Part shown: positions 1 to 19,600 of the stretch, piece after piece
Position numbering within the stretch: position 1 is the stretch's first letter
Layout of the letters: each line of letters begins with the position of its first letter
Assembly: GCA_009602725.1 (NCBI GenBank)
Contig: WELB01000266.1
Location: forward strand, 33,525-57,046
Length of the DNA: 23,522 nt
Reading direction: 5' to 3'
DNA from: Spirogloea muscicola
Lineage: Eukaryota; Streptophyta; Zygnematophyceae; Spirogloeales; Spirogloeaceae
Made by a program: the position numbers and the translations under genes
The notes under the pieces: model-generated
What the model was told of the DNA's origin: nothing
Databases searched by the model: none
What the model saw: the letters and a program-made list of their open reading frames with translations, nothing else

Positions 1-210
1 CCGCTGCGGCTGCTGCGGCGACGGTGGCGGCGGCGGCGGCGGCGGCGGCGACGCTACCAGCTGGCGCTCCCGCACCTGGCCCCGTTCCAGAGCCAGCGGC
101 CTCTGCTCCGCCACCGGCAGGCCCGCAAGCGCAGCTGCAGCCGGCGGTGGAGGCGCTGCCAGCCATCGTGCAATCGGCAGCGGTCGCAGAGGCCCTGTCC
201 TCGGGCGCCG

Positions 211-246
<36 letters not shown>

Positions 247-1743
247 GGGCTGCCGTCGAGGTCCCAGCGGCAGTTGCAGCCGCCGCAAGTACCACTGTTG
301 GACCGCTGGTGATGGAGTTCTGGGACGACTGGGCGGCCCCGCCGGACATGAGCGCCCTGTGGCGCAACCCTGGCGTGGCAGCCGAGTGGGCGGCGCGCGG
401 TAGCGGCAGCGGCAAGAAGGTCCCGATGGCCCGTCTCCCTGGAGGCCGGCCGGTGGTGACCACCACGGAAATGCGCGTGAGCAGCAGGCCGCCGACTCCC
501 AGGCCGTCATATGGTCCCAGGAGATGATTTGGAATATAGTCAATTACGTGATTGGAAACAGATAATCGAGTTCTGCGGTCGAGCGAGTCAGCCAGTCTCC
601 TTTGTACTCGGGAGGTACTGCCAGTCGTATCTCGCAGCAGCTGCCGCGCTGATGCTGCTGTCGTCTTGTGCACTGATGCAGGCTGTTGCCGACATCATCA
701 TCAGCCGCCACTTTGCCGGCCGTGTGGACCCCGTGAGTGTCCCCAACCTCAGCACATGGTTGTGGCAGCATCAATGTAAGCACGAGTTCTACATCTAGCC
801 CCACTGTAATTATGTGGTGAGCCATTCTGATGGGCTGGTTGTCGACCCCTAGACGCCACAGCCTGATTCTAGTACCAAGCGCTCGAGTCCAGGCTTCAGT
901 TGGATCGCTGGATGCCCTCAGTTTAGGCCAACCGCTTGTGGCCAGGTGTCTGTCTGCGCGATTGCGGAGGTGGAGAGCGGCAGGCAGCCGCTGGCATACC
1001 GCTTTGAGCCGCATCTGGGGGAGGCGTCCACGGGCATCATGCAGGTCCTGCAGTCCACTGCCGAGTGGCTATCAAGGTGCGCTGCCTCGCATGAGTTGTA
1101 TACCTTCAGGACGCGCATCATTCTGACCTCCACTTCTTCATCTGTACTACTTACTGCTGTACCGCTAGCTGAAGCTTGAGCACTCTTGGCAGAGGGAGCC
1201 ATGAGCTAGCCGTTACCCCGATCCAGGTCAATGAAGGCTTTGTACCTCTGGGCCAATTGCTGCTGCAGAGATCATCAGAACTGGAAGTCGTTCTGCTTGT
1301 GCTCCTGCTTGATGGCACTGCTCGGTGTGACTGGCCTTCTCAGGGACATGGGTTACCGGGCATATACCGTTGACTGGGCCAACAAAATGCTGTACCAGCC
1401 ATTTGTGGCCGTATACGTTGGCGCGGCGTATCTCAACTGGCTCTCCACTTATGCTGGCAAGTCGGTGCTCACTGCCTGCCCGTCTAGGAAGCATGGCTCG
1501 ATGGGCATGTTCCAGTTGGTCACGTGAGATTGTGGTTTCCTGGCTGGCTCAACTTGATGCAAGCTGATGCTTGTTCAAGGACAAGTGCCTCGCTCGTGGC
1601 GAGTGGTTGGCAGAGACCGGAGTGAGGAGTTTGTCGTAAGGGGCTACAATGGCGGCCCACGGGGTATTGAGAAGGCGTCAACCCAGCGATACTGGACCAA
1701 GTATCTGCTCGCCAAGGAAGCCCTGCTTCTGAAGGCGAGGTGA
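1..1743 (+). CDS. Plant-type SLT/lysozyme-like transglycosylase domain protein, copy 1 (5' partial)
   Basis: Five exons can be placed: <1-476, 682-732, 946-1076, 1344-1460 and 1614-1743, with GT-AG introns and matching phases (0, 0, 2, 2). The reading frame is open to the left edge, so the true start may lie outside; the in-frame ATG at 312 is a possible alternative. The N-terminal part is a long Ala/Pro-rich stretch. It is followed by the segment EFWDDWAAPPDMSALW, then AVADIII, then the lysozyme-like core: a Glu-Ser pair in AIAEVESG (expected catalytic Glu), STGIMQVLQSTAEWL, RDMGYRAY, VGAAYLNWLS and the late motif RGYNGGP with YWTKYL. This order is that of SLT lytic transglycosylases, which cleave glycan strands such as peptidoglycan or chitin-like polymers. 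Land-plant and algal homologues exist, but I know of no settled substrate. A tandem paralogue follows on the same strand. The fold is secure; the activity is inferred. Confidence 0.85.
205..245 (+). repeat. GCC triplet run coding poly-alanine
   Basis: A nearly pure GCC run lies in the first exon of the SLT copy 1 gene and encodes a run of alanines. A second GGC-rich run lies at about 25-52 in the same exon. Both sit in the low-complexity N-terminal region ahead of the folded domain, where length change would be tolerated. Confidence 0.8.
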
Positions 1744-1969
1744 CTTGCGCGGGGCTTCTGCTGCATGTAGCAAGGCAGCTCAATCTGATGTTAACAGCCT
1801 GTTAATGCTGACATGGCATGAATGCTGCTGCGCTGCGATATTGTCAATTTTTTGTTGTTAGGTTGTGCTGATGAGCCCTTGATTGAAGTCATCACATTTC
1901 ATCAAGTCTGCACAATGTCTTGGCAGGGCCGAAGTGGATAAGGCAGTCGCATCAGCAGTGGCAATTGCT
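1744..1969. other. Intergenic spacer between tandem SLT-like genes
   Basis: Short spacer between the stop codon of copy 1 and the proposed ATG of copy 2. It is AT-richer than the flanking exons and must hold the 3' end of copy 1 and the promoter of copy 2. I see no conserved element that can be named. Confidence 0.4.
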
Positions 1970-3531
1970 ATGGCTGGTGCATCGCTGCCCACGTCGTCTC
2001 TCACGGCCAGGGCTGGCACGGCTGCTGTGAAGGCCGGAGGCCCCCTCCCTGCCGCCCCAGCTCCATACCTGGTGCCCACTGGTATTTCACACCCAAGGCT
2101 TGCCTCAATCTGCACAAGGAACCTGAGCTTGTCTGATGCTTGATGCGGTTGCTTGGCACCTGGTAGTCTTTATGCACTGCAGCAAAGTTCATTGAGACCA
2201 TTATGCATATGATGGAGTGCAGTGCACTATGTGCAATACTGGTAATCTGCTTGTAAATGCTGGCTCGACAACCTTCTTGTGCCAGTCAAAGGGTTGCAAG
2301 TGAGGAGTAGATGAAAATCAATGCAAGAGCTTATGGACGACCGTCTGCAAGACCCCTTTGACCTCATCAGGCACGTGGATATATTGGGAAGAGCGAGCAT
2401 CCACCAGGGACCTAGCGGAGCTCCACAAGGACCCCCGCGTAGCTGAGGAGTGGCGCAAAGCTGGGGAAACAGGCCGTGGTCGCATTCGGTTCTGCAGAGA
2501 CCAGCTGTCCCAGCCGTACCTTACGAAGAATGAGTTGCAGGTTAGCAGTCCGCTTATGGCCTAGTACAAAGAGGGTGGCACTAACAACTGTATACCTTGT
2601 TGGAGAGTGTGGTAAGAAGCTCCTTATTAACAATATAGGTTCATTTGATTGATAGCTGAAAATGTTTGATGGTGCACATAGGTACCCTTTGTGCTGACAA
2701 AGCCTGCTTTTGTCAAGTGCAGGCTGTTGTGGACATTGTGCTGCGGACCCACTTTTCGCAAAAGAGGGGACTTAGTGCTGCGATGCTCTGCACCTTGGCG
2801 GAGATTCGGAGCAAGCGGTACCTATGTGGCTCTGGCACGGTTCACAACGGCCTCATGCAGGTCGACCTGGCAACTGCTCGCTGGCTTTCAAGGTTGCAGC
2901 TATACTACGTCTCCTCAGTCATCTTCAAGCACCTAGACAGCATTAGCATCTCAACTCCCTACTTGTAATATGCATCCATGTCCAGAATGTACTTCTTGCA
3001 GTTTATGTTAGAGTGCCACATACAGTGATGAGAGCTTGTTGGTTGGTAGTACAGTTTGCTTTGGTGACTGCATCAGTGTACTAACCTTCACATGTGCATT
3101 ACATGAGTTGGTCTCAAATGACGGTGTTCGAGCTTCAGGGTGCACTGTGATACTGAGTCGTTTGTCCTTGTCAACCAGGGACTTGGGTTATGGAGCCTAC
3201 CCTGCTTCCTCTCAAGAGGATCTTTGGAGGCCTTTTGCCTCCTGCTACTATGGTGCTGCATACTTGCACTGGTTATGTAACCTTGACGGCAGGTGTGCTG
3301 CCCGCTGACAAGCTTCAGAACATAGCTCCAGCATGCAACGTATCCACAGAATTCAGTTAAGCTTTGGCAGAGCTTTGTTGGAGGACATCTTGCTGAATGG
3401 TGTCACTGTGCAGACCAAGGAGCGAGGAGTTTGCAGTGAGGAGTTTCCTAAGCGGCCATGCTTTAGCAGACTCTTCGCAATCATTACCCTTCTGGAAAGA
3501 GTACCTGAAGGCCAGGGTGCTTTACCAGTGA
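1970..3531 (+). CDS. SLT/lysozyme-like paralogue, copy 2, probable pseudoenzyme
   Basis: Proposed exons are 1970-2081, 2371-2540, 2723-2892, 3179-3292 and 3414-3531, which join in frame to about 227 codons. Exon 1 (Ala/Pro-rich, ATG at 1970) is the least certain: it was chosen because its phase-1 donor fits the phase of exon 2 and because copy 1 also starts with an Ala/Pro-rich region. Later exons follow copy 1 block by block: WIYWEERASTRDLAELH, LTKNELQ, AVVDIVLRTHF, NGLMQVDLATARWLSR, DLGYGAY, YYGAAYLHWL, RSEEFAVR and FWKEYLKA. Two functional motifs are gone: the Glu-Ser pair of copy 1 is replaced by Arg-Ser (LAEIRSK), and GYNGGP is replaced by SFLSGH. No stop or frameshift breaks the frame, so it may be expressed as a catalytically inactive protein; a young pseudogene is the alternative. 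Confidence 0.7.
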
Positions 3532-4573: not shown

Positions 4574-7149
4574 TTACTTTGAAGTCTGCAAAAGCAGGCG
4601 ACCGTGGTAGTCCCAAGGCCTTGTGCTATAGCGCTTTCCTGCAACACTGCGCCTCTTTGTGATACTCCCGTCAGCTTCTTGATAATCTGGGAAGTAGTCA
4701 AGAAATGACTTTGTGCCCATGGATTGGAGCCCATCAAACAGAAAGTTATGAATGTAGCCCTGCATGCCAATCAAGACATTGAACTAAGCTTCAGACGTAG
4801 CTCCTTCCTCAGCTTCTCATCTCTTATCTTATACAGCGATGTCTCATCTTCTCGATCCTCTGGGCACGCCGTGACCAGTCCCATCCTAAGTACAACCACA
4901 ACTATGCCCTATGGTGCACGTTATAAGTGGCATCCTTGATTGCTTGAGTGCGACCAAAGGTGTTGAGCCTCCAGGGCAGAGGTTCAGGTTGCTGTGCTTC
5001 TTACCTCACACCGTTCTACCCCAAACAGGCGTGTGAGCAATGGCCTGCCTGGATCCTGAATGGATGATACATAGGAGTCACTTTGTGAAACATGGCGACC
5101 ACCAATTTGCAGCAGGCACCTCGTTTTCATCCTTCTTGACCTTCTCCTTGCCCTGCAATCTACGAAGCTTCACAATACAGGACTAAGACAAAGATAACAA
5201 CAGCCCTGCACCACTTGTGACATGCTAACTGCACATGGGTACCTTCTCTGCTCGCCAGCTCAAGTAGCGATGCTGGGCTTCTTGATTCTTAACAACAATG
5301 CTTGAATCCATCTCGGGCTGAGCTTTGTCAAGCATTGCAAGCCATGCCTGAGCAGTCATACAGATGACAGCATCTCAGGAATCTTCAAAAGCAATCAAAC
5401 TGCTCTTACGCTCTACAATTGTTCATTCCCACAACACATGAGGCCATTTGGCAGCCAATGCCACATTGAAGGGGTTATCTTGCAGATGTCTTCCTGTAGG
5501 CCTTAGGTCAAGCAAAGAGAGAGTGTGGCACGTACTTCCAGGTAAGCTTTGTAAGCTTCGAAGACAATGAGATGCACGTCAGCTTCAAGAGGGAGGCGAG
5601 CCCACAGTAAAGCGGGGGAGAAGAACTGGAGGGACTCTGCCGTGAATTCGCCACCCCAAGTCAGAGACTGCAACTCAATTTGCATGCAGCATCTATGAGT
5701 GACAACATGCTTTCACAACGTTTGCATGCCGATCATGTCTGGGATGATACCTCCAAACACTTAGATATACGAACCCTTGAAACATACATATCAGAGTGAG
5801 AAGACACCTGTGAATAATGCTCACACACAGGCAAGATCGGGAAGATGTACTTCTTGTGGTACTCTTCTGTGTTGTACAAGGGGTTTAAGTCGCTGCAAGC
5901 ACAGGATATTGATTTTCAGTGCTTGCTCTGTGAAGTACATGGTAAGGTCCTTGGCTGGGATGGCTGCTCGGCACTAGCAAGGCAAATCAAGTACTCAGTT
6001 AACACCTCAATAAAGAGATCATAACTATCTGAAGTACTGCTGACAACATATGAGCAGGTACATATGGCAAGGAGTGGTGACACAGCGCGAGCTCCACAAT
6101 TACGATGACTAAGAAGAGTGCGTACATGACAACGAGGTGGCCTTTACCGAAAGTGACCAGGTCCGCACAGAAGTAGGGTAGATCGTACTCTGGCCTCGGG
6201 AAGATGATGAGGTTCAGCACCTGAGCGAAGGGCAACTGAGAAGCTCTGGCAAAGCTCACATTGTGCTGTGATAACCCAAAAGAAGATGAGGGTGACAATG
6301 ACAGTGGGGGGGTTTGGGGGGCCTTGGAGTTTTGGGTTGTTGGGGGGAGCTCTGACCTGCAGCATGGGGCCGGCGCTAATGTCCGCCGCCCGAAACTGGC
6401 GAACCTTCTCCGCCTGCAGCGACGTGCTGCGGGCCACCGCCGGCCCGCCTTTGGGGTCTGTTCCCTGCAGCTCCACGTACTCGTCCTGCACAGCTGAGGC
6501 ATCCCATCAGCGAAGCCATCTTCAGCAACTCACAAGAGTGAAGCAAGCGGGACGACTGCCTGCCGATGAGGTTTTCGCGTGCTTGTGGGCTACCCAGGTG
6601 GAGCCTTGCTGCGAGGCAATTGGGTGCCGAGCTCGAGCTGAAGCTCGCATGGAAGTGCGGCCGAGCAGGCAGCGGCGGCGGCGGTGAAGGGCCGCTTGAC
6701 GCAGCTGTAGCTGCTGTGACAACACCAGTGGGCTCGACCAAGCCAAGGAGGGTGATAGGAGGGCCTCCTCGCGGGCGTGCCTGGATGGGGAAGGGCCAGA
6801 GGCGCGTACGGGCGCCCAGCGCCGCCACCGTGTGCTCGACAAACGGCGTGTACAGGCCGGCACCACCGAATGGCGCAGCGGCAATGGCGGAGGAAGATGC
6901 AGAAGCCTCGGCTCCGGCGCCGTCGGAGGACGCCGCCGGCGGCTCGGCGAGCGAGCTCCCCGCACAGGCCTCGGGCCGCCGCCGCCGCCGCCGCCGTCGC
7001 CGCCGCCGCCGCTGCCAGGACGGCGGAGCGGCGGCGGCAACGTGGCCGCCGAGGCCACTGACACGAGAGCCAATGTGGGTCTCTTTGCCGCAGGCACGCC
7101 GCGACTGGGGAAGCGCCCACAGACGCAGCTCTCGGCAATGCGCTTGCGG

Positions 7150-7706: not shown

Positions 7707-10437
7707 TCAGTAACCCCTGCTAAGCAGCCGCAGATCAGAGATGCTGGGCTCCTGGAAGTGGGTCCCCTGGCCAGAGCCAGAGGCAGCAGCGAGGGCTCTG
7801 CCGGCACGAAGGTGCAGCGCCCGGGCCATGGACCTCTGCAGCGAGACGGCCAGGCGCATTCAATACATTTGCGCCAGCGACCCGGCTGCAGGGAAGTCTA
7901 CCGGCTCTCCATGGAAGCGCCGGGCGATGGTGTGGCGGGCGAGCTGGGTGAGCAGCTCGAGCCACCGAGCGCCCAGCGCCCCATGTGTGTCGATGGCCAA
8001 CGGGAAGAACTGGTCTTCCCGCGGATGATCCGCGTACTTCAGCTCTTTGGCCCGAGCAGCGCAGGCGACCGCATACCCAGCCGTGGTGGCACAGTTAGCT
8101 GGGTGTGAGCGGTCATAGGCATCAGTAGTCACCACGTCCAGGAGAAGACGTGGCCCGCCGGCCTGTCGGGTGGCCACCAGGTCTACACGCCTGGCGTGGA
8201 GACCGTCGGCCCTGTGCTGGATTGGCATGATTCCGGAGTGCTCCGCTGCCACGGAGAGACCAGCCTCCAACAGGATGCCATGCATTACGTCGCGGAGGCG
8301 GTCGTGGGCCGCTGTCCGCTCTCCGCCGTGGGAACAGCGCAGAACATGAGCAGCCAGCGCTCCAGGCTCGGTCCCGCGCTCGCCACACTCACATTGACGC
8401 ACACCCTGGAGACATGGCGGCAGTAGGCCTAGGAGCCGGTGGACGGCACTGCGGAATACCTCGTCCGGGAGGGTGAGGGCGTCGTTGAGGGGGAGGGCCT
8501 GGAGCCACGCCGCAGCCCCCGGGGAAGAGGCCGAGTGGAGTCTCGCGCGCCCGCGCAAGTCGGCCTCGGGGAGCTGCAGCACGGCTGTGGTGTAGGCGGC
8601 CTTGTCGACCACTGCCGCGATGCGCGCTTGGACGCGCAAGTCGGCGGTGTGCGCGAGGTGCGCAAAGGATACAGGTGCGCAAAGGATACCGCCTGGCCGG
8701 CCAGGTCCGGGTGCGCCGCGAGCAGCTCCTGGTGGGCGGAGCGAAGCGACACCTGGAACGGCAGCGGCCCATGTCGACCTCCGCCACCGCCTGCTCCAGT
8801 GCCCGCCGGCCGTGGACCAAGAAGCGCTGGGCCACGGAGGCGGCAGTCTGCGCCCAGCTGCCGAGGTATGCCGCCCGGCAAGAACGAGCGAGCGGGCGCA
8901 GGCCGAGACCACCGTGGCTAAGGGGTAGCGCCGCCTGCTGGATAGCTGCTGGCGACTGGAGGAAGCCCTGGTGGCGGACCAGGGCCGCCAAGCTCGCCAC
9001 CATGCCTGCATCGAAATCTGCATACGCTGCCAACGCCCCAGGGGACGGCGGAGTGGCCCGCGTCAGTTACTGGGGCCGCTGCCCAATGGCCCTGGTCAAC
9101 ATGGCCAGCGATAGTTGCATGTCGTCCAGCTCGGGAAGCCGGGCCGCAGGCTGAAGGTACTCCGCCAGGCGGGCTTGCAGCTGCCCCTCCACGAAGGACG
9201 GCACGCCGATGGGGACCCCCAGCAGGGTGAAGCCATCTGCTGGAGTTTGGCAGCCGGTGGGCAGCGTCAGGTGGGGTGGGAGGCCGCTGGGAGACCAGGC
9301 CGCGCACTTTGACGCCCGGGTGGACAGGCCGAGGGTGGCCAGCTGCAGCTCAAGGGTGATGAAGGCTGCCGCCACGTCTTCCGGAGGGCCGACGATGGTG
9401 GTGTCGTCTGCGATATAGGGGAGTAGGACTCCTGGGTGTGCCGCGGCGGTTGCCTGCAGGGCCCGGTGGTGAGCGAGCGCAAAGTGATAGCCGGCGAGGG
9501 GGTCTCCTTGCCGCGTGCCCGCTTGGGACTGCAGGACCTCCACTTGATCTCCCCCTGTCCGCCAGAGGAGGTCGCTGGGCTGACCGTACCCCAAGCGGAA
9601 AAAGGGTACCAGGGAGGGGAAGGATGCCCGGAGCTCCTCCGCGATGCTGGCGCGCTCCACAGTGTTGAAGGCATTCTTCACGTCAACGGCCAGCACCAGC
9701 CACCCCGGGTGCTGGTCCAAGGTTGCACGAACCCCATGGACGACGGCCTCGCCCCCACTCCGCAGCCCCGCACCGTACTGGTGTGGCGCCATGTGCACCT
9801 GCGCCGGCCCCGCATGCTGCTGCCAGAGTACGCGGCTCACCAAGCGGTACAGGACCACCCCAATGGCAATGGGCCTGACTCCCCCGCTCGGCTTGTCGAG
9901 GGCGAGCAGCGTGCTGGTGCACAGTACGCCGCGGATGCTGGCCGGCACATTGTCGTCACGGGCCATATGCTGGCAGATCTGCAGCAGCGCGTTGAAGTCT
10001 GTTGCCTCACCCTCGAGGAAGATCTCCCGCAGGTGCTCAGTTAGCATGCGGGAGGGGCCGCCGGCGGCTGCGCGACGGCTGGTCTGGAGAGCCTTCTTGA
10101 GGGCGTCGGCGTCCAAGATCACCTCCTCCGGCGGGGCGAACGCGGCCAACCACGGTGGCAGGGGGGAGCTGGACGGGGGGTGGAGGGAGTCCAGAGCCGC
10201 CCGGGTTGCCGCATTGGTCGGCGCCAGCATCGCATCGTCCAGGGCCTGCACAGCCCGGGAGAGCTCGCCCGCGTGGCCGTAGCGAAGAGCCCTGCGGACG
10301 CTGGCGGCCCGGTCGTGTGTTGCCCCTCGACCACCACGGTTGGCTTCGGATGCCGCCACGGCTGCGTCGTGCCTCGCCAGGAGCTCCTCCCAGTGCCCCG
10401 CTCTCGAACAACTGGACGCGTTCCAAGAGGGACATCG
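7707..10437 (-). pseudogene. Disabled LINE polyprotein: reverse transcriptase + CCHC + RLE endonuclease
   Basis: The reverse transcriptase occupies roughly 10100-9070: motif A in AVDVKNAFN, motif B in QAGTRQGDPL and motif C as YIADD at 9417-9403. A thumb-like region continues in the same frame after an in-frame TAA at 9069-9067. The frame is then lost by a one-base deletion near 8766-8771 and by a 17-base tandem duplication at 8656-8689. Past these comes the C-terminal domain: CxC...H...C in QCECGERG...HVLRC (about 8400-8335), then RVDLVA and LLLDVVTTDAYD (about 8200-8110), the spacing of a restriction-like endonuclease. A TGA at 7862-7860 precedes a further 50-codon tail (motif ALHxxAGRALAA, ending LLSRGY and TGA at 7709-7707) that is conserved in the sibling copies. 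That stop is therefore probably a mutation of CGA. The product cannot be made as one protein. Confidence 0.85.
8656..8689. repeat. 17-bp perfect tandem duplication in LINE coding region
   Basis: Two adjacent identical units, 8656-8672 and 8673-8689 (unit begins AGGTGCGCAAAGG). The 17-base gain shifts the reading frame. Reading the frame on either side (AVSFAHL before, AHTADLR after) shows that a single unit would restore continuity, so the duplication arose after the element was intact. Confidence 0.9.
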
Positions 10438-11082
10438 CTTCAACTCTTCCTCGGCCTCCCACCTAACTGCCTGATTGGGGTGCGCCAGTGCGAGTGCGGC
10501 TTCCGTGCAGAGGGTGCTGTGCTCGCCACTCACATGCTGAGATGCCCCACTGGACCAGAAGTGGTGGGCAACCTCCTTCGCGATGCCCTGGCGGGCTTGA
10601 TGCGCGACGCCGGCTACCGAGCGGTCGTGGAAGTCAACAATATCATGCCTATCACCACGGACGCCCAGGGACGTCATCATCGCCGCACACTTGACATTGT
10701 GGGCGTGCAACTTGGTGGTAGACTACGGGCCCTGGTCGACGTTGTTGTTACGGAGGCATATAAGGGCCCAGCATCGACACACATCGCTAGGCATGCAGTG
10801 GGCGGTGCAGAACAAAGAAAACTGCGGCACTTCTCCGATCACCCCCAATGCGATCAGCTCCTGCCAGCGGCAATCGACATCTATGGCTGTCTGGGTACTC
10901 GTTTCCACACTGCTTTCAAACATTGCCAATCTAGGCTACACTCGACGTGCAGATGTGTTTCCGGCTGAGATGGGCTTGCCAGGCATATCTGTCGCTCTTG
11001 CGACGACGAGTTTCGGCCTGTTTGCAGCGTGCTCAGGCTAGTGCCTTGCACCAGAAAGCTGGGCGAGCTCGAGTTGGTGGCA
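10437..11082 (+). mobile_element. LINE fragment P, part 1: CCHC + endonuclease domain, plus strand
   Basis: The frame from about 10441 to 10968 encodes a homologue of the C-terminal half of the neighbouring minus-strand LINE. It has CLIGVRQCECG with a CxC...H...C knuckle (10491-10547), NNIMPIT, TLDIVGVQL and LVDVVVTEAYKG (10687-10767), then HFSDHPQCDQ. Identity to the neighbour is moderate, so it is a different subfamily. The frame closes at 10966-10968, but homology continues in another frame (LLRRRVSACLQRAQ, ALHQKAGRA) to about 11080, so it is also frameshifted. No reverse transcriptase is present: the element is 5'-truncated, exactly at its junction with the inverted neighbour. Confidence 0.82.
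11078..11082. repeat. Candidate target-site duplication, left (TGGCA)
   Basis: TGGCA here and again at 11396-11400 flank the nested minus-strand LINE tail. Joining the plus-strand sequence across one copy gives a continuous LINE P tail. Five bases is short, so chance identity cannot be excluded. Confidence 0.45.
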
Positions 11083-11755: not shown

Positions 11756-12241
11756 TACATATAAACAGCTTGAGAATTAAAAACTCCTTTCAAATGGCAA
11801 CTGTGGCGGAACTGTCAAGCATAGTGAGATCCCTTCGACTTTTCCACCTAGCTTGAAGATACAGTTAACCAACGCCAGCCTTGGCTTTTCACGACAAGCT
11901 GCCTGGCTGCAAAGGTTACAGACTAAGGTGGAATAAGGCCCAGGGTCTTGCCAGCTCAGCGGCCTGCCTAAGTAGTGCAACATTTGGGTAGACTCCCCAA
12001 GACACAGGAGTCGTACAAGCACACAGATGATGGCCTATCTCAGACATGCCAGCTTATCAACAAGAGACTTACAGTTCTGCCAACACAATACACCTAAGAG
12101 AGACAATGAAGAACGAGGAGTGCAAGTGCAGGCCATTGCTTCATGAACAGGTAAATGGCGAACTATTAAGCAGTTTAACAAGAAGCCACATAGTACACGT
12201 TCAATGTGCACGTCCTGCTCAAGAGGGCTATTTCAAGGTGC
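11756..12241. other. Region between LINE debris and the RPT1 3' end
   Basis: Contains the 3' untranslated region of the minus-strand RPT1 gene and unassigned DNA. Open frames are short and show no recognisable family. A small TATATACATACATATAA-like simple stretch lies at about 11749-11764. Confidence 0.4.
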
Positions 12242-15200
12242 CTAATTGTACACCATATACTTGGGGGTTGCGCTGAACTTTTGATAGCCTTTGATGACTT
12301 TATTCACTGCTTCCAAGAAGTCCTTCTCGGTGACTGTTTTCCTTCTTGCTCTAATGGCATACATCCCAGCCTCTGTGCAGACGCTCCTGATGTCAGCACC
12401 TACCGAGATGAGAAGGTCTGAGGTCAGGCTCTAATGTCAGGAAGGCTCAATGCATTCCTTAGGTATGTCAACAGTCTTCAAGAACACGTGGACTTTACCA
12501 CGGACCACGATCAAGCTGGCAGGCTCGCAGAAGCATGCAGCATATGTTTTACATAGTATGAAGACTACCAAGTTGAGAAGAAGCTACACAAAAAGCATGA
12601 CACGACCTATGTCTTGCTAATCTGGTGTTCACCTGTGGAGTTTGGGCATAGTCGAGCAAGGAGCTCAAAGCGGATGTCCCGATCACAATTCATTGTCCGC
12701 GTGTGTATACGGAAAATCTGAGCTCTACTCTCCAGGTCTGGGAGCCCAAATTCCACTTTCCGGTCCAGCCTTCCTGGTCTCAGCAGTGCAGGGTCTAGCG
12801 TGTCCGGCCTGTGTGATGAGCACCTTACAAGTCAGAAGCAACAGAGTTGACCAGCAGAACAGCTCTATCACCCCTATTTAGGTGGACATGAGGTCAACTT
12901 CTCAGATGTACTGGGCCACAATATGTACATGCTTCAATCTGACTGAAGAACTCAGATGCTGATAGGTGAAAAGACAATATGTACTGTACTTCGGCCTTTG
13001 CCTTGACAAACATCTCTGCACAAACTGCTCCAGCTCCGAGGTGACAATACTGCAGAGTAGCACATTTACAACTTGCTATCCCCACGCTCAAACAAAGAAA
13101 TCGAGCAGGACCTTCGACCTTGCAAAATTGGGCTCTGGACAACCAGCATGTGGGGTTTTCTTATTACCTGTTTGTCGCCATGAGGACCTTGATGTTACCC
13201 CTAGCATCAAATCCATCAAGTTGGTTGACAATCTCAAGCATTGTGCGTTGGACTTCATTGTCACCTCCAGCACCATCGTCAAAGCGAGCACCACCAATGG
13301 CATCCACTTCGTCGAAAAAGATGATGCACGCCTTCTTCGATCTTGCCATCTGAAAAGGACGGGAGTACAACAGCAATTAACCTCTTATCTGGCAACAGAA
13401 ACAAGCACTTCTCTCAACCTCACCTGAATTGTAGATCTTGCTAAAAACTATCTGAGAGGCACAAAGGAACACATCTTGCTCCTGCTTTGCTCACACCTTC
13501 CATTGCTGGCACGCAGATGGACTTGAAATTTACCTGAAACAACTCACGGACCATGCGCGCACCCTCTCCAACGTATTTTTGCACCAGTTCACTTCCAATA
13601 ACCCTGATGAAGCAGGCATCTGTCCTATTCGCCACGGCTCTGGCTAGCAATGTCTTGCCCGTGCCCGGAGGACCATAGCATAGAACTCCTTTTGGAGGAT
13701 CAATTCCCAGCTTCACGAACTTTTCAGGATGCAACATGGGCAGCTCCACAACCTGAATACAGGTGAACGAAGATGACACTGGCGCACTGTGACGAAGGCA
13801 CCAGCTTTTACCATGCATGGAGCATAGTGCCTGCTTCACCTTATGCAAGGGCGTTATTGGCTGTGACGTTGTGTAATGCCACCAAACTTTTCAAAGGTTT
13901 GCTCTGTCAAGTACCTCTCGCATGCGCTCAATCTGCTCCTTGCAGCCACCAACATCGCTGTAGGTAACGTCTGGCTTCTCCTCTACAGTCATCATGGTGA
14001 CACTCGGATCAATTTTGGGTGGCAGGGGAATCTGTATTTGATACTTGTTGCGATCAACCCTGTTAGGGAATCCAAACACAGAGAGCAAATTGTAAATTAC
14101 TATGATGAAGGTCTCTGGGGAAGACTGCGAGCACATCTGAAGGGGACTTTCGGACCCAACAAACGAGCCAGTGATAAAGAGTCGACTGTCAGTGCCATGA
14201 CTTTGCAGTTCATGTTATCACACGAGACAATCCATGTGCACAGTACACAAATTCCCTGTCAGCTTCTTAATGTGAAACGTCACTTCAATGTGCAAGGGCT
14301 GCAAGCTGGTCGTCTTGGAACATACCCGACACGCATGCCCTCCTCAATATCCGTCGGCGAGACCTTATCTCCAAGTCCCACCACAAACTGCAAAGAGCAG
14401 TAAGAGTTGCATACATCAATGACTTACTGCCAGCGACAGCACAGACAACAAAGTGAGTGGCACTTCTGAAATGTCGGGCAGACTCTGCAAGATGTACCTT
14501 GGCAATCTGCTTGACATTGATGACGTACTTGGCATCCTCTGTGTTGGCGTTGATGATCTTTGTGCAGCGAGCGACCTTTGTATCATCAGACAGCAATGTG
14601 CAGCTTCAGAGCAGACAGTTGCTCAACAAGGACCGGAAACTAAAATGCATGAGCAGCAGAGACTGGAATCTGACTGGCCTCTATTAAGCGTGAGACCTTG
14701 CATATCAACCTCCCGTATGTTTGACAGACCTGCAAGGGCTGTTCCTCCTGCATCATCTGCTTGTCGGATACCAGGTCCCATTGGCTAGGCGCAGCCAGGC
14801 CGGTGTCCAACTCCTTGATGCCTGCCGCCAAGGCCACCTTCTCGCTAATTAAGAGAAGGCATCCTGTCGAGATGAATGCATAAGTCCAAGGTTTCAAGCT
14901 TCCAGTCCCGACATGGCACTATCAAGTGCCGTTTAAGGCCCTTCTAAGTGGCAGTGACGGCCCGCAGCGATTATCGCAAAAGGTACTGGGCAGGCTGTCA
15001 CCGCAGAGATCATTGACCACCTTGGCCATCTCCTTGATATCCGCCTCCGCGTCCTTGATGGCGGTCGCATACGGCCCGAGCCCCTGCCGAGAGACAGCGG
15101 AAGGCAAGCGGTCATCGTCCGCGCGTCTACTTGGTCTGTGAGCTACCATTATTTTAGCCATCATCTTCTCCCAGTCCGCAGAGGCATGAACGGCCACAGC

Positions 15201-16666: not shown

Positions 16667-19600
16667 CTAGACTGCTGCTAGTGTCTTTGCAAAAAAGTCT
16701 TCCAGATTCAGATTGGCATCACCATGCGCAATAACAGCTTCAGGTTCTGGCATGAACAGCGTTGACATGCTTGCCTGCATAGACAAGTGAATTGATTGGA
16801 TATATAGGCCTAACATTGCACCTCAAGTCTGCCAACAAAACGTATGACTCTAAGCAATAAAAGCTAGGACATATGGTCAACGCAATCAAGTCTACCTTGT
16901 TATGCTGACGGCATCAAATGATGTCCAGATTTGCCAACTACACTCTTCCTGGGGCCCTGGGGTAGGTGGGATAGGTCATACCTTCGTGTCCAATGAAACG
17001 ACAGGCGTATCAACGAGCGTGCAACCATGAACCTTCAGCCACTCAGAACACTCTTCCTCTGCCTCGCTGGCCGGCAGTCCATCTGAACCTTCTCTTGAAG
17101 TTGCCTCAATGTCACCAAAGGCCAACGTTCTGGCAATGAAGGCAATTGGTAGAGATGGCCTATATGCTCGTGTCATGCAATGAACAGCAGCGTATCTCAT
17201 CTTGTCTGCATGGAGATCTGCACATTGGTCCCAGACATTATCGTCTTGCTTCAGTACTTTGAGGGTCGTTCCCAGTAGCACGGCAAGCAGACAGCTTGTA
17301 CCAACTCAGAGGTTGGATATCAAATATATCACAAACTTGGTTCAGACATCTCACCCATAAGTTGTTGCCCAAGATTTGGAGCTCTTTTGTACAGGGCAAA
17401 GAATTTGTAATAATTTTCAGATGCCACAGCATGCCTGACATCCAGTGCATGCTTGACAGCTGGATCTTCCCTGGCTCCAGAGGTAAGCCTGGACAACGGT
17501 ATTTTAACAGAGAAATTGTCTTTTTAGCACCATACAAACACCGGCTTGGTCCAGATCGCACAATCGATTTTGATATCGGAGCATGTAAGTCAGGATCCAG
17601 ACTCATACGCTGCCATGGAAGCAAGTAGGTCGTTGCTGCTGCTGCCATGCTGAAACACTGTGTACAGCAGGCCGTAAGCTGCACGTGCAATACGAAGGCA
17701 CAATAAGTGCTGCTCAGCAATGTAGAGCTGCTGCAGGTTTTGTTTCAGTAAATAATTTGCCTTTCTATCAGCAAATTGACTTCAGGATGTTGCACATTTC
17801 CGGGCCGCTTGTTTCTGTATGCCATTACTTAGGAGGAAGATGCGAGCAACGTAGTGTTAAATGAGGCAGACAAGCTTACCAGCGAATTCGCACTTGCAAC
17901 CAGAGATCCCTTCGTTGTACAGGCCCTTCAGCTGCGCTTGGCACTGGCAAGATGACAAAGAAAAGTGTAGTATTGCCATGTGAGGCTTGGCCCGCATAAA
18001 CAAGGTGAAGGCAAGAATAGTTCATATGATTTCAGCATGTACAAGTGCAGGCTAAGGTGGTAACCTGATTATATTCACCAAGGTCGCCAGCCTCGAGAGC
18101 TAATCTCCCGTGTGTTTCATAAACCTGACAAGCAATAGTCTCAAGACCAGGTCAGGATTCAACCATTATAGGTTGTGACAGCGCAGTGAGGTCAATGACG
18201 AAGGCAAAGAAGCTAGCCGCAAGTGAAATTGGGTCATATCCATTATGTGCCCTGAAGATTGATATGAGCCCTGAGCTGTTCATAAAATTTACTCACCTCT
18301 GCCGTAAAATCATCTCTTATTCTTTGCACAGTCAAATCCTGGCGTATACTTTTGAGCTGATCACATTTATAGAGGTACGACTTTTCCTGGCGTATACTCT
18401 TGAGCTGATCACATTTATAGAGGTACGACTTTGTGCTGTCCTTGACCATTGTAAGAGCTTTCTTCAGGACTTCTTCGGGCCTCACCTGCAGAAAAGTTTC
18501 ATGCATTTACTGGTTTGCATAACTTTCACAAAGCAGAGTAGCTATATATGTGCGATTGCAAGTAGACATGGCAGATACACAGTCTTGTGTCCTCTCAAGG
18601 AATGCCAGACCAGTCAGCAGACAATGAGACAATCAAGGTGCTGTGTTGCAATCTGCAACAAACTCACTGTGCTGGGGTCTGGAGCTGAGGTCAGCCTTAG
18701 GTATTTCTTGGGGATCTCCTGACAAGTGCCCCTCACAGTGAGCTGGTCCCAGTCCATGTCTTCCACAGATGCCTCGCCGCCATTCGCATTCGCGCTGGCC
18801 TGCAGGGCATGGTGGGCCCATGCCATCTGCACAGAGGTAGCACCAGCAGGGACACAGGAGCTCAGCTCTGACTTGCTTCTGATTTGCAGAGAATGCCAGC
18901 CCATAATTAACACAATAGCGCCAATCATAGCTACTAAGAAAATCAAACTGATACAAAAAAGAAGAAATAACTAAGTTGTATAGACTGTTTGCTTGATTCA
19001 GACTAGACTACCGGGCAGAAGGACCCGCTAGATGTACAGCGTGTTCAAGAACTTCACCAACCTCTACAACAGCATTTGTATAGTTCACAAAGGTCAGACA
19101 ATTTGGTTCGGCCAAAGTTGCAGACCTTGTAGGCAGTAGCCCTCCGCTCTCCAGCAGAGCCCCCAACTCCACCACCACGTGACCGCGCGTGATCGAACCT
19201 CTTCGCCCTCTTCAATCGCCTGTCTCTCTCCTCAACAGTCTCCTCACGGCTGCGCCCGGCGCCGGCTGCGTCGTCCTCTCCTTCGTCCTCCTCGCTGTCA
19301 CTGCCACCATGCCTCCTCCACATTTTCTTCCGCTTTTTGCCAGACTGGGGCTCCTGCCGCCTCCACAGACCTTCCTGCTTTACAGGGAGCTGACAGAGCC
19401 CCAGTCCTTGATGCAGTGTCAGCAGAATCCAGCAAAGCCAGGCGGTGGTTGTTACACAAAAACAATGATATCAGCTCTGCAAGGTGACTTCCGATGAAAC
19501 AGAAAACCATTTGGGAATACACATGATTACAGCAAGCAAGTAAGGAACAAATTAAAATGCCGCATGGTGGTCACAATCACTTACAGAGGTACTCAAAGAA

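Follow-up and report, generated by a model that had tools for sequence, protein, structure and literature searches.

In the sections of the Neisseria LtgA study drawn on here (PMC7083599), catalysis by lytic transglycosylases is said to depend on one Glu or Asp, and helix 30 of LtgA is described as a clamp on the glycan; its deletion severely reduced peptidoglycan binding compared with the wild type or the E481A variant. For MltD, the relevant section of a further report states that the E125A and E125K variants, in which the catalytic Glu is replaced, are inactive (PMC10931528). SLT-domain annotations also exist for plant genes, including soybean Glyma.08G165100 (PMC5895683) and rice LOC_Os02g07480 (PMC9276952), and the excerpts that list them give no function for either. 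Among the matches listed in literature searches on plant and algal SLT proteins and on SLT pseudoenzymes, no title dealt with a pair like the one described below; journal coverage was partial, so that the absence of such a report is unproven. The portions of the plastid peptidoglycan literature retrieved with the terms searched contained nothing on SLT proteins.

The analysed DNA, referred to as the window, is a stretch of 23,522 nucleotides from Spirogloea muscicola. At its left end it carries two SLT-like domains in tandem, the first (D1) intact in its motifs and the second (D2) degenerate. Both were placed in a single gene model on the + strand, which spans the left-hand end of the window as far as position 3531, with ten exons and nine GT-AG introns. 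The predicted product has 541 residues followed by a stop codon, and the phases are compatible at every junction, giving a single frame. The 5' end of the gene lies outside the window; the candidate start codons in exon 1 include an ATG at position 313, and the true start may lie beyond the window. The region 3-310 (+) is GC-rich and Ala-rich, and all three forward frames are open at the window edge, so that it may be coding only in part. The exons of the model are as follows.

Exon 1, 3..476, + strand: long stretch rich in Ala and Pro, followed by the N-terminal piece of D1 (LVMEFWDDW...TTTEMR); open frame, donor GTGAGC
Exon 2, 682..732, + strand: D1 (AVADIIISRHFAGRVDP); GT-AG introns, phase 0/0
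Exon 3, 946..1076, + strand: D1, motif I AEVESG and motif II GIMQV..TAEWLSR (1033-1076)
Exon 4, 1344..1460, + strand: D1 (DMGYRAY...GAAYLNWLSTYAGK), from the gene model
Exon 5, 1614..1739, + strand: D1, motif III GYNGGP (1642-1659); ends in LLLKAR
Exon 6, 1927..2081, + strand: linker (AEVDKAVASAVAIAMAGASL...PYLVPT); phase 2 in and phase 1 out, matching its neighbours
Exon 7, 2371..2540, + strand: N-terminal piece of D2 (WIYWEERASTRDL...TKNELQ); matches D1
Exon 8, 2723..2892, + strand: D2; motif I has degenerated to AEIRSK, motif II persists as GLMQVDLATARWLSR (2849-2892)
Exon 9, 3179..3292, + strand: D2 (DLGYGAY...YYGAAYLHWLCNLDGR), from the gene model and the D1-D2 alignment
Exon 10, 3414..3531, + strand: D2, degenerate motif III SFLSGH (3442-3459); stop TGA 3529-3531

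D1 matched the Pfam SLT family (PF01464) with 57.3 bits, above the gathering cut-off of 21.3. When aligned with Slt70, EmtA, MltC and an enzyme of Marinomonas phage YY, it displayed E-S, GIMQV..TA and YNGG, and this alignment placed its Glu (codon 973-975 in exon 3, inside CAIAEVESGRQ at 955-987) in the column of EmtA E64 and Escherichia coli Slt70 E478 (which we take to be mature numbering, assuming a 27-residue signal). By sequence D1 bears the hallmarks of an active enzyme that cleaves glycan, and it is predicted to be one. In searches with E up to 10, SLT was the sole Pfam family found for either D1 or D2, and no match to Destabilase was obtained, the HMMER filters removing most matches above E of about 0.1. 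The N-terminal piece shared by both domains (W..D..L..P.VA.EW) had no Pfam match. Against NCBIfam, D1 gave three matches, all far below the cut-offs, and against PHROGs it matched an endolysin family (E 8e-6), with a second match at E 0.23.

The segment at 1642-1700 (+), containing NGGPRG..K.ST..YW, is closer to lysozyme 3ab6 than to bacterial SLT motif III.

The first PDB match of a combined D1+D2 profile was EmtA (E 0.004). For D1 alone, the best PDB sequence matches were the lysozymes 3ab6 and 4pj2 (E 6e-4), with ESG and NGGPRG..K.ST..YW in common. Both entries are titled 'Lysozyme' and we take them to be i-type (invertebrate) enzymes; lysozyme-type hydrolysis is thus left possible, and the match may be a hint that D1 acts as a hydrolase rather than by transglycosylase chemistry.

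D2 is clearly a relative of D1, the two sharing 65 identities in 189 aligned columns (34%; 121 bits), far beyond chance. Its score against PF01464 was 20.5 bits (E 3.8e-4), just below the cut-off. It had no match in NCBIfam or PHROGs, and only three chance-level matches in PDB (E 1.3-1.4). The initial annotation had described the change of AEVESG to AEIRSK and of GYNGGP to SFLSGH, with the frame left open, and all three observations held. Motif I of D2 reads CTLAEIRSKRY, with an Arg codon (CGG, 2807-2809) in the column where D1, Slt70, EmtA, MltC and the phage enzyme have Glu. Since GAG and CGG differ at two bases, a single miscalled base does not explain the replacement. The loop after the Glu is six residues shorter in D2; MAFFT places this gap over a further acidic residue of D1, and BLAST a few residues earlier. 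In motif III, D2 has F-L-S-G instead of Y-N/A-x-G. Once the GT-AG introns are removed, its four exons contain neither an internal stop codon nor a frameshift before the terminal TGA. The initial annotation passed over the motif lying between these two (GLMQV...TA.WLSRD.GY), which D2 retains.

The proposal that the second copy is catalytically dead is well supported by the loss of the Glu column, in line with the inactivity of the catalytic Glu mutants of MltD. A splice form restoring the Glu was sought in introns 6-8: Glu-Ser pairs were absent from intron 6 and occurred once in intron 7 and twice in intron 8, none of them resembling motif I, so no obvious candidate emerged from the three introns scanned (intron 9 lay outside the scan). 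Enzymatic activity of D2 by way of another acidic residue or a different chemistry is very improbable. An Asp directly after MQV (MQVD) and a Glu two positions before the lost one, the latter present in both copies, could be cited in its favour; against it stand the dependence of lytic transglycosylases on a single Glu or Asp, the effect of replacing that residue in MltD, and the alteration of motif III as well.

The exon structure bears on the origin of D2. The three introns inside D2 all lie at D1 intron positions and in the same phase (3/3), an agreement with a probability of about 1e-7 at random. The copy was therefore made from genomic (nuclear) DNA that already carried introns. The earlier statement that the second copy follows the first exon by exon was close to correct, with two exceptions: a fourth D1 intron (733-945) is absent from D2, and the N-terminal piece of D2, which aligns with that of exon 1, has an exon of its own (2371-2540), while in D1 it shares an exon with the Ala-rich stretch.

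Divergence between the copies, estimated by the NG86 method, was dN 0.68 and dS 1.48, the latter near saturation. The resulting dN/dS of 0.46 is an average over the branches of both copies with dS close to its limit. In a neutral simulation with 0.5 substitutions per site, one of 300 frames stayed free of stops at a mean identity of 37.5%; the actual copies agree at a similar 35.7% across 185 aligned codons. At 0.3 substitutions per site (54% identity) the number was 4/300, and at 0.7, 0.9 and 1.1 it was 1, 1 and 0 of 300; the simulation loads all change on one branch, and the lower rates apply if D1 took part. The simulation and the shared splice sites support the view that D2 has been retained rather than being left to decay. 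That D2 is a functionless relic in the course of decay is accordingly a reading we hold to be highly unlikely: its lower Pfam score and its GC3 of 0.63, below the 0.76 of D1 (introns, 0.42-0.57 GC), would fit decay, but the frame is open across four exons at 34-36% identity with intact GT-AG sites, stop-free frames were rare in the simulations at both 37.5% and 54% identity, and the loss across conserved columns is uneven.

This unevenness was assessed at the 29 columns where four or all five of the sequences compared (D1, Slt70, EmtA, MltC and the phage enzyme) carry a common residue. This majority residue is present in D1 at 23 of them, with six departures, and in D2 at 16. Over the stretch from the glycine of motif II (GLMQ) through the GAAYL helix, 13 of 14 majority residues survive in D2, compared with 3 of 15 in motif I and in the motif III/C-terminal parts (two-sided Fisher P 1e-4, for a partition picked after viewing the columns). 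When only the 23 columns in which D1 agrees are counted, the figures are 12/12 and 3/11. Such a pattern is not expected from uniform decay, and the loss in D2 looks selective. D2 seems to have kept much of the fold and part of the sugar-gripping surface.

What the retained part does is less easily read. The sequence of helix 30 of LtgA, as printed, begins just after GLMQ when set by eye against Slt70. The results with this helix and with the MltD mutants suggest that D2, although probably inactive, may still touch glycan, and it may have the glycan-binding or regulatory role that had been suggested for it. Two ligand contacts named for LtgA, Met501 and Glu507, are by eye conserved in neither D1 nor D2. 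D2 has a changed groove on the side of motif III, and glycan binding may therefore be lost too. D2 could then be purely structural or protein-binding, packing on D1 or on another protein with all contact to glycan gone, which we regard as a real possibility while leaning against it. The columns kept between motifs II and III (G, L, P, G, A, Y, L, L) look like fold positions, and the groove is altered on its motif I side as well as on its motif III side, as this explanation would have it. It accounts less well for the retention of motif II itself (G, L, M, Q, T). Motif II lines the groove in the bacterial enzymes, which fits the account of LtgA and counts against a purely structural D2.

The initial annotation treated the second copy as a separate gene, a partner of the first, starting at 1970. 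This is probably wrong, since a linker exon (1927-2081) can connect the copies in frame; D2 would then more probably form the C-terminal part of one protein with D1. In the model, the GT-AG introns on either side of the linker match in phase, although a phase match by itself has a one-in-three chance. The ATG at 1971 sits inside a frame that is open upstream to a candidate splice acceptor at 1926, and is thus probably not a gene start. An acceptor at 2010 outscores the one at 1926 and leaves the frame unchanged; exon 6 may then begin at 2011, with a linker 28 residues shorter and ATG 1971 dropped.

Splice sites were scored with matrices built from the other eight introns of the gene model, each left out in turn. 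The linker intron scored 4.55 (donor) and 4.19 (acceptor), within the leave-one-out ranges of the other eight (donors -1.46 to 8.21, acceptors -0.31 to 6.06). Among 234 GT sites its donor ranked 26th, and among 262 AG sites its acceptor ranked 34th; higher-scoring sites exist nearby. A scan for TGTAA poly(A) signals came up empty both in the interval separating the copies and downstream of D2 as far as position 5200, and is therefore uninformative on this point.

Two adjacent genes would require D1 to stop at the TGA at 1741-1743, with a pseudoenzyme gene for D2 beginning at ATG 1971. The in-frame TGA directly after D1 and the ATG within the linker exon both suit this arrangement, and the Ala/Ser/Thr/Arg-rich start of D2 could be a plastid targeting peptide, the residues after ATG 1971 being presumably of the kind found in transit peptides. 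The TGA overlaps the donor of exon 5 (AG|GTGACT), however, and any phase-2 AG|GTGA donor creates a TGA, so that one is expected here under splicing; the gap from TGA to ATG is only 227 bases, and the upstream frame is open to an acceptor of the right phase. We consider two genes unlikely. From the phases and scores, D1 and D2 probably form one two-domain protein, and the reading of the locus shifts from two tandem genes to that. Retention of the linker intron would yield a D1-only protein.

Our preferred reading is that of one nuclear gene encoding D1 together with a non-cutting D2 that holds or positions glycan or packs on D1; we regard its chances as evenly balanced. D2 would derive from an old genomic duplication, with its introns already in place. 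Arg would have replaced its general-acid Glu, and part of the adjoining loop would have gone along with the Y-N of motif III, while most of the fold-defining residues and motif II were kept. It would thereby have become a non-cutting module in the same chain as D1, holding or positioning the glycan or packing against its sister domain. The sequence itself shows the two domains, the substitutions, the introns in common, the open frame and the uneven loss; splicing into one protein, the activity of D1, the inactivity of D2, the holding of glycan and the biological substrate are inferred.

A bolder version, which we find doubtful, is that an active SLT muramidase or transglycosylase is permanently tethered to its dead twin in a green-lineage protein, and that the twin, with its glycan-clamping motif kept, holds the substrate from within the protein and so determines chain length or processivity; the peptidoglycan of plastids or of bacteria is a possible target. 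Many green algae are without peptidoglycan synthesis genes, according to the part of a survey considered here (PMC8227023), and the substrate may thus be bacterial, plastid or chitin-like.

Relatives of the two domains were sought in several collections. In tblastn searches of phages, D1 matched three records, the best (E 2e-5) in Marinomonas phage YY, and D2 matched two records of the same phage (E 8e-3). Among plasmids, D1 had no match and D2 one at chance level (E 0.6). Pattern scans of prokaryote genomes confirmed no close relative among 65 stretches (D1+D2 alignment) or 57 (D1 pieces); in IMG/VR, none was confirmed among 7 and 18 stretches found with D1 pieces, 21 found with the D1+D2 alignment and 7 found with D2. 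These scans require near-exact short peptides, and thus exclude only close relatives. Weak phage matches aside, the prokaryotic, plasmid and viral collections yielded no close relative of D1 or, outside the window, of D2, for which the two weak matches fell in one phage. PF01464 itself was present in 8 of 14 control genomes. A search for further copies within the window gave just two chance-level matches (E 0.36 and 0.93).

The neighbouring sequence contains several other features. A long open frame at 9067-10710 (-) carries an RVT_1 reverse transcriptase domain (54.3 bits), placing a retroelement near the gene. At about 12240-14140 (-), possibly extending further, lies an intron-bearing gene for 26S proteasome subunit 7 (RPT1); its joined exons matched PDB chain 8amz_H best, with 535 bits compared to 480 for the next chain, and we take 8amz to be from spinach. 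This match supports a eukaryotic nuclear genome of the green lineage; an algal source had been assumed in the initial annotation. A weak match to SAC3/GANP (22.2 bits against a cut-off of 27) was found at 18243-18506 (-), in an open frame that contains the 15-residue repeat KSYLYKCDQLKSIRQ twice. Rfam (at the gathering threshold) and tRNA searches of the window yielded nothing.

Compared with the SLT lytic transglycosylases (PF01464; Slt70, EmtA/MltE, MltC, LtgA), D1 shares E-S of motif I, G-I-M-Q..T-A, GAAYL and Y-N-G-G. D2 shares motif II and the GAAYL helix and differs in lacking the catalytic Glu and the Y-N of motif III, which goes with its score just below the family cut-off. Both domains are set apart from this family by the additional N-terminal W..D..L..P.VA.EW piece and by their location in an intron-bearing nuclear gene. 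With the lysozymes 3ab6 and 4pj2, D1 has ESG and NGGPRG..K.ST..YW in common, which D2 lacks; it differs from them in its SLT-type GIMQV..TA and GAAYL and in having no Destabilase match in Pfam. The soybean and rice proteins cited above are likewise annotated as products of nuclear SLT-domain genes.

A two-half arrangement may also occur in plant SLT proteins. A gene that pairs an intact SLT domain with a dead, selectively conserved copy would open a direct way to the role of these enzymes in plants; its dead half could be used as a glycan probe, and the pair could be tested as a processive or self-regulated enzyme. Dead lysozyme-fold domains are an already known kind. Alpha-lactalbumin is a lysozyme-fold pseudoenzyme that has kept the fold without lysozyme activity; it differs from D2 in belonging to another lysozyme class and in being a separate protein, whereas D2 is probably fused to its active sister.
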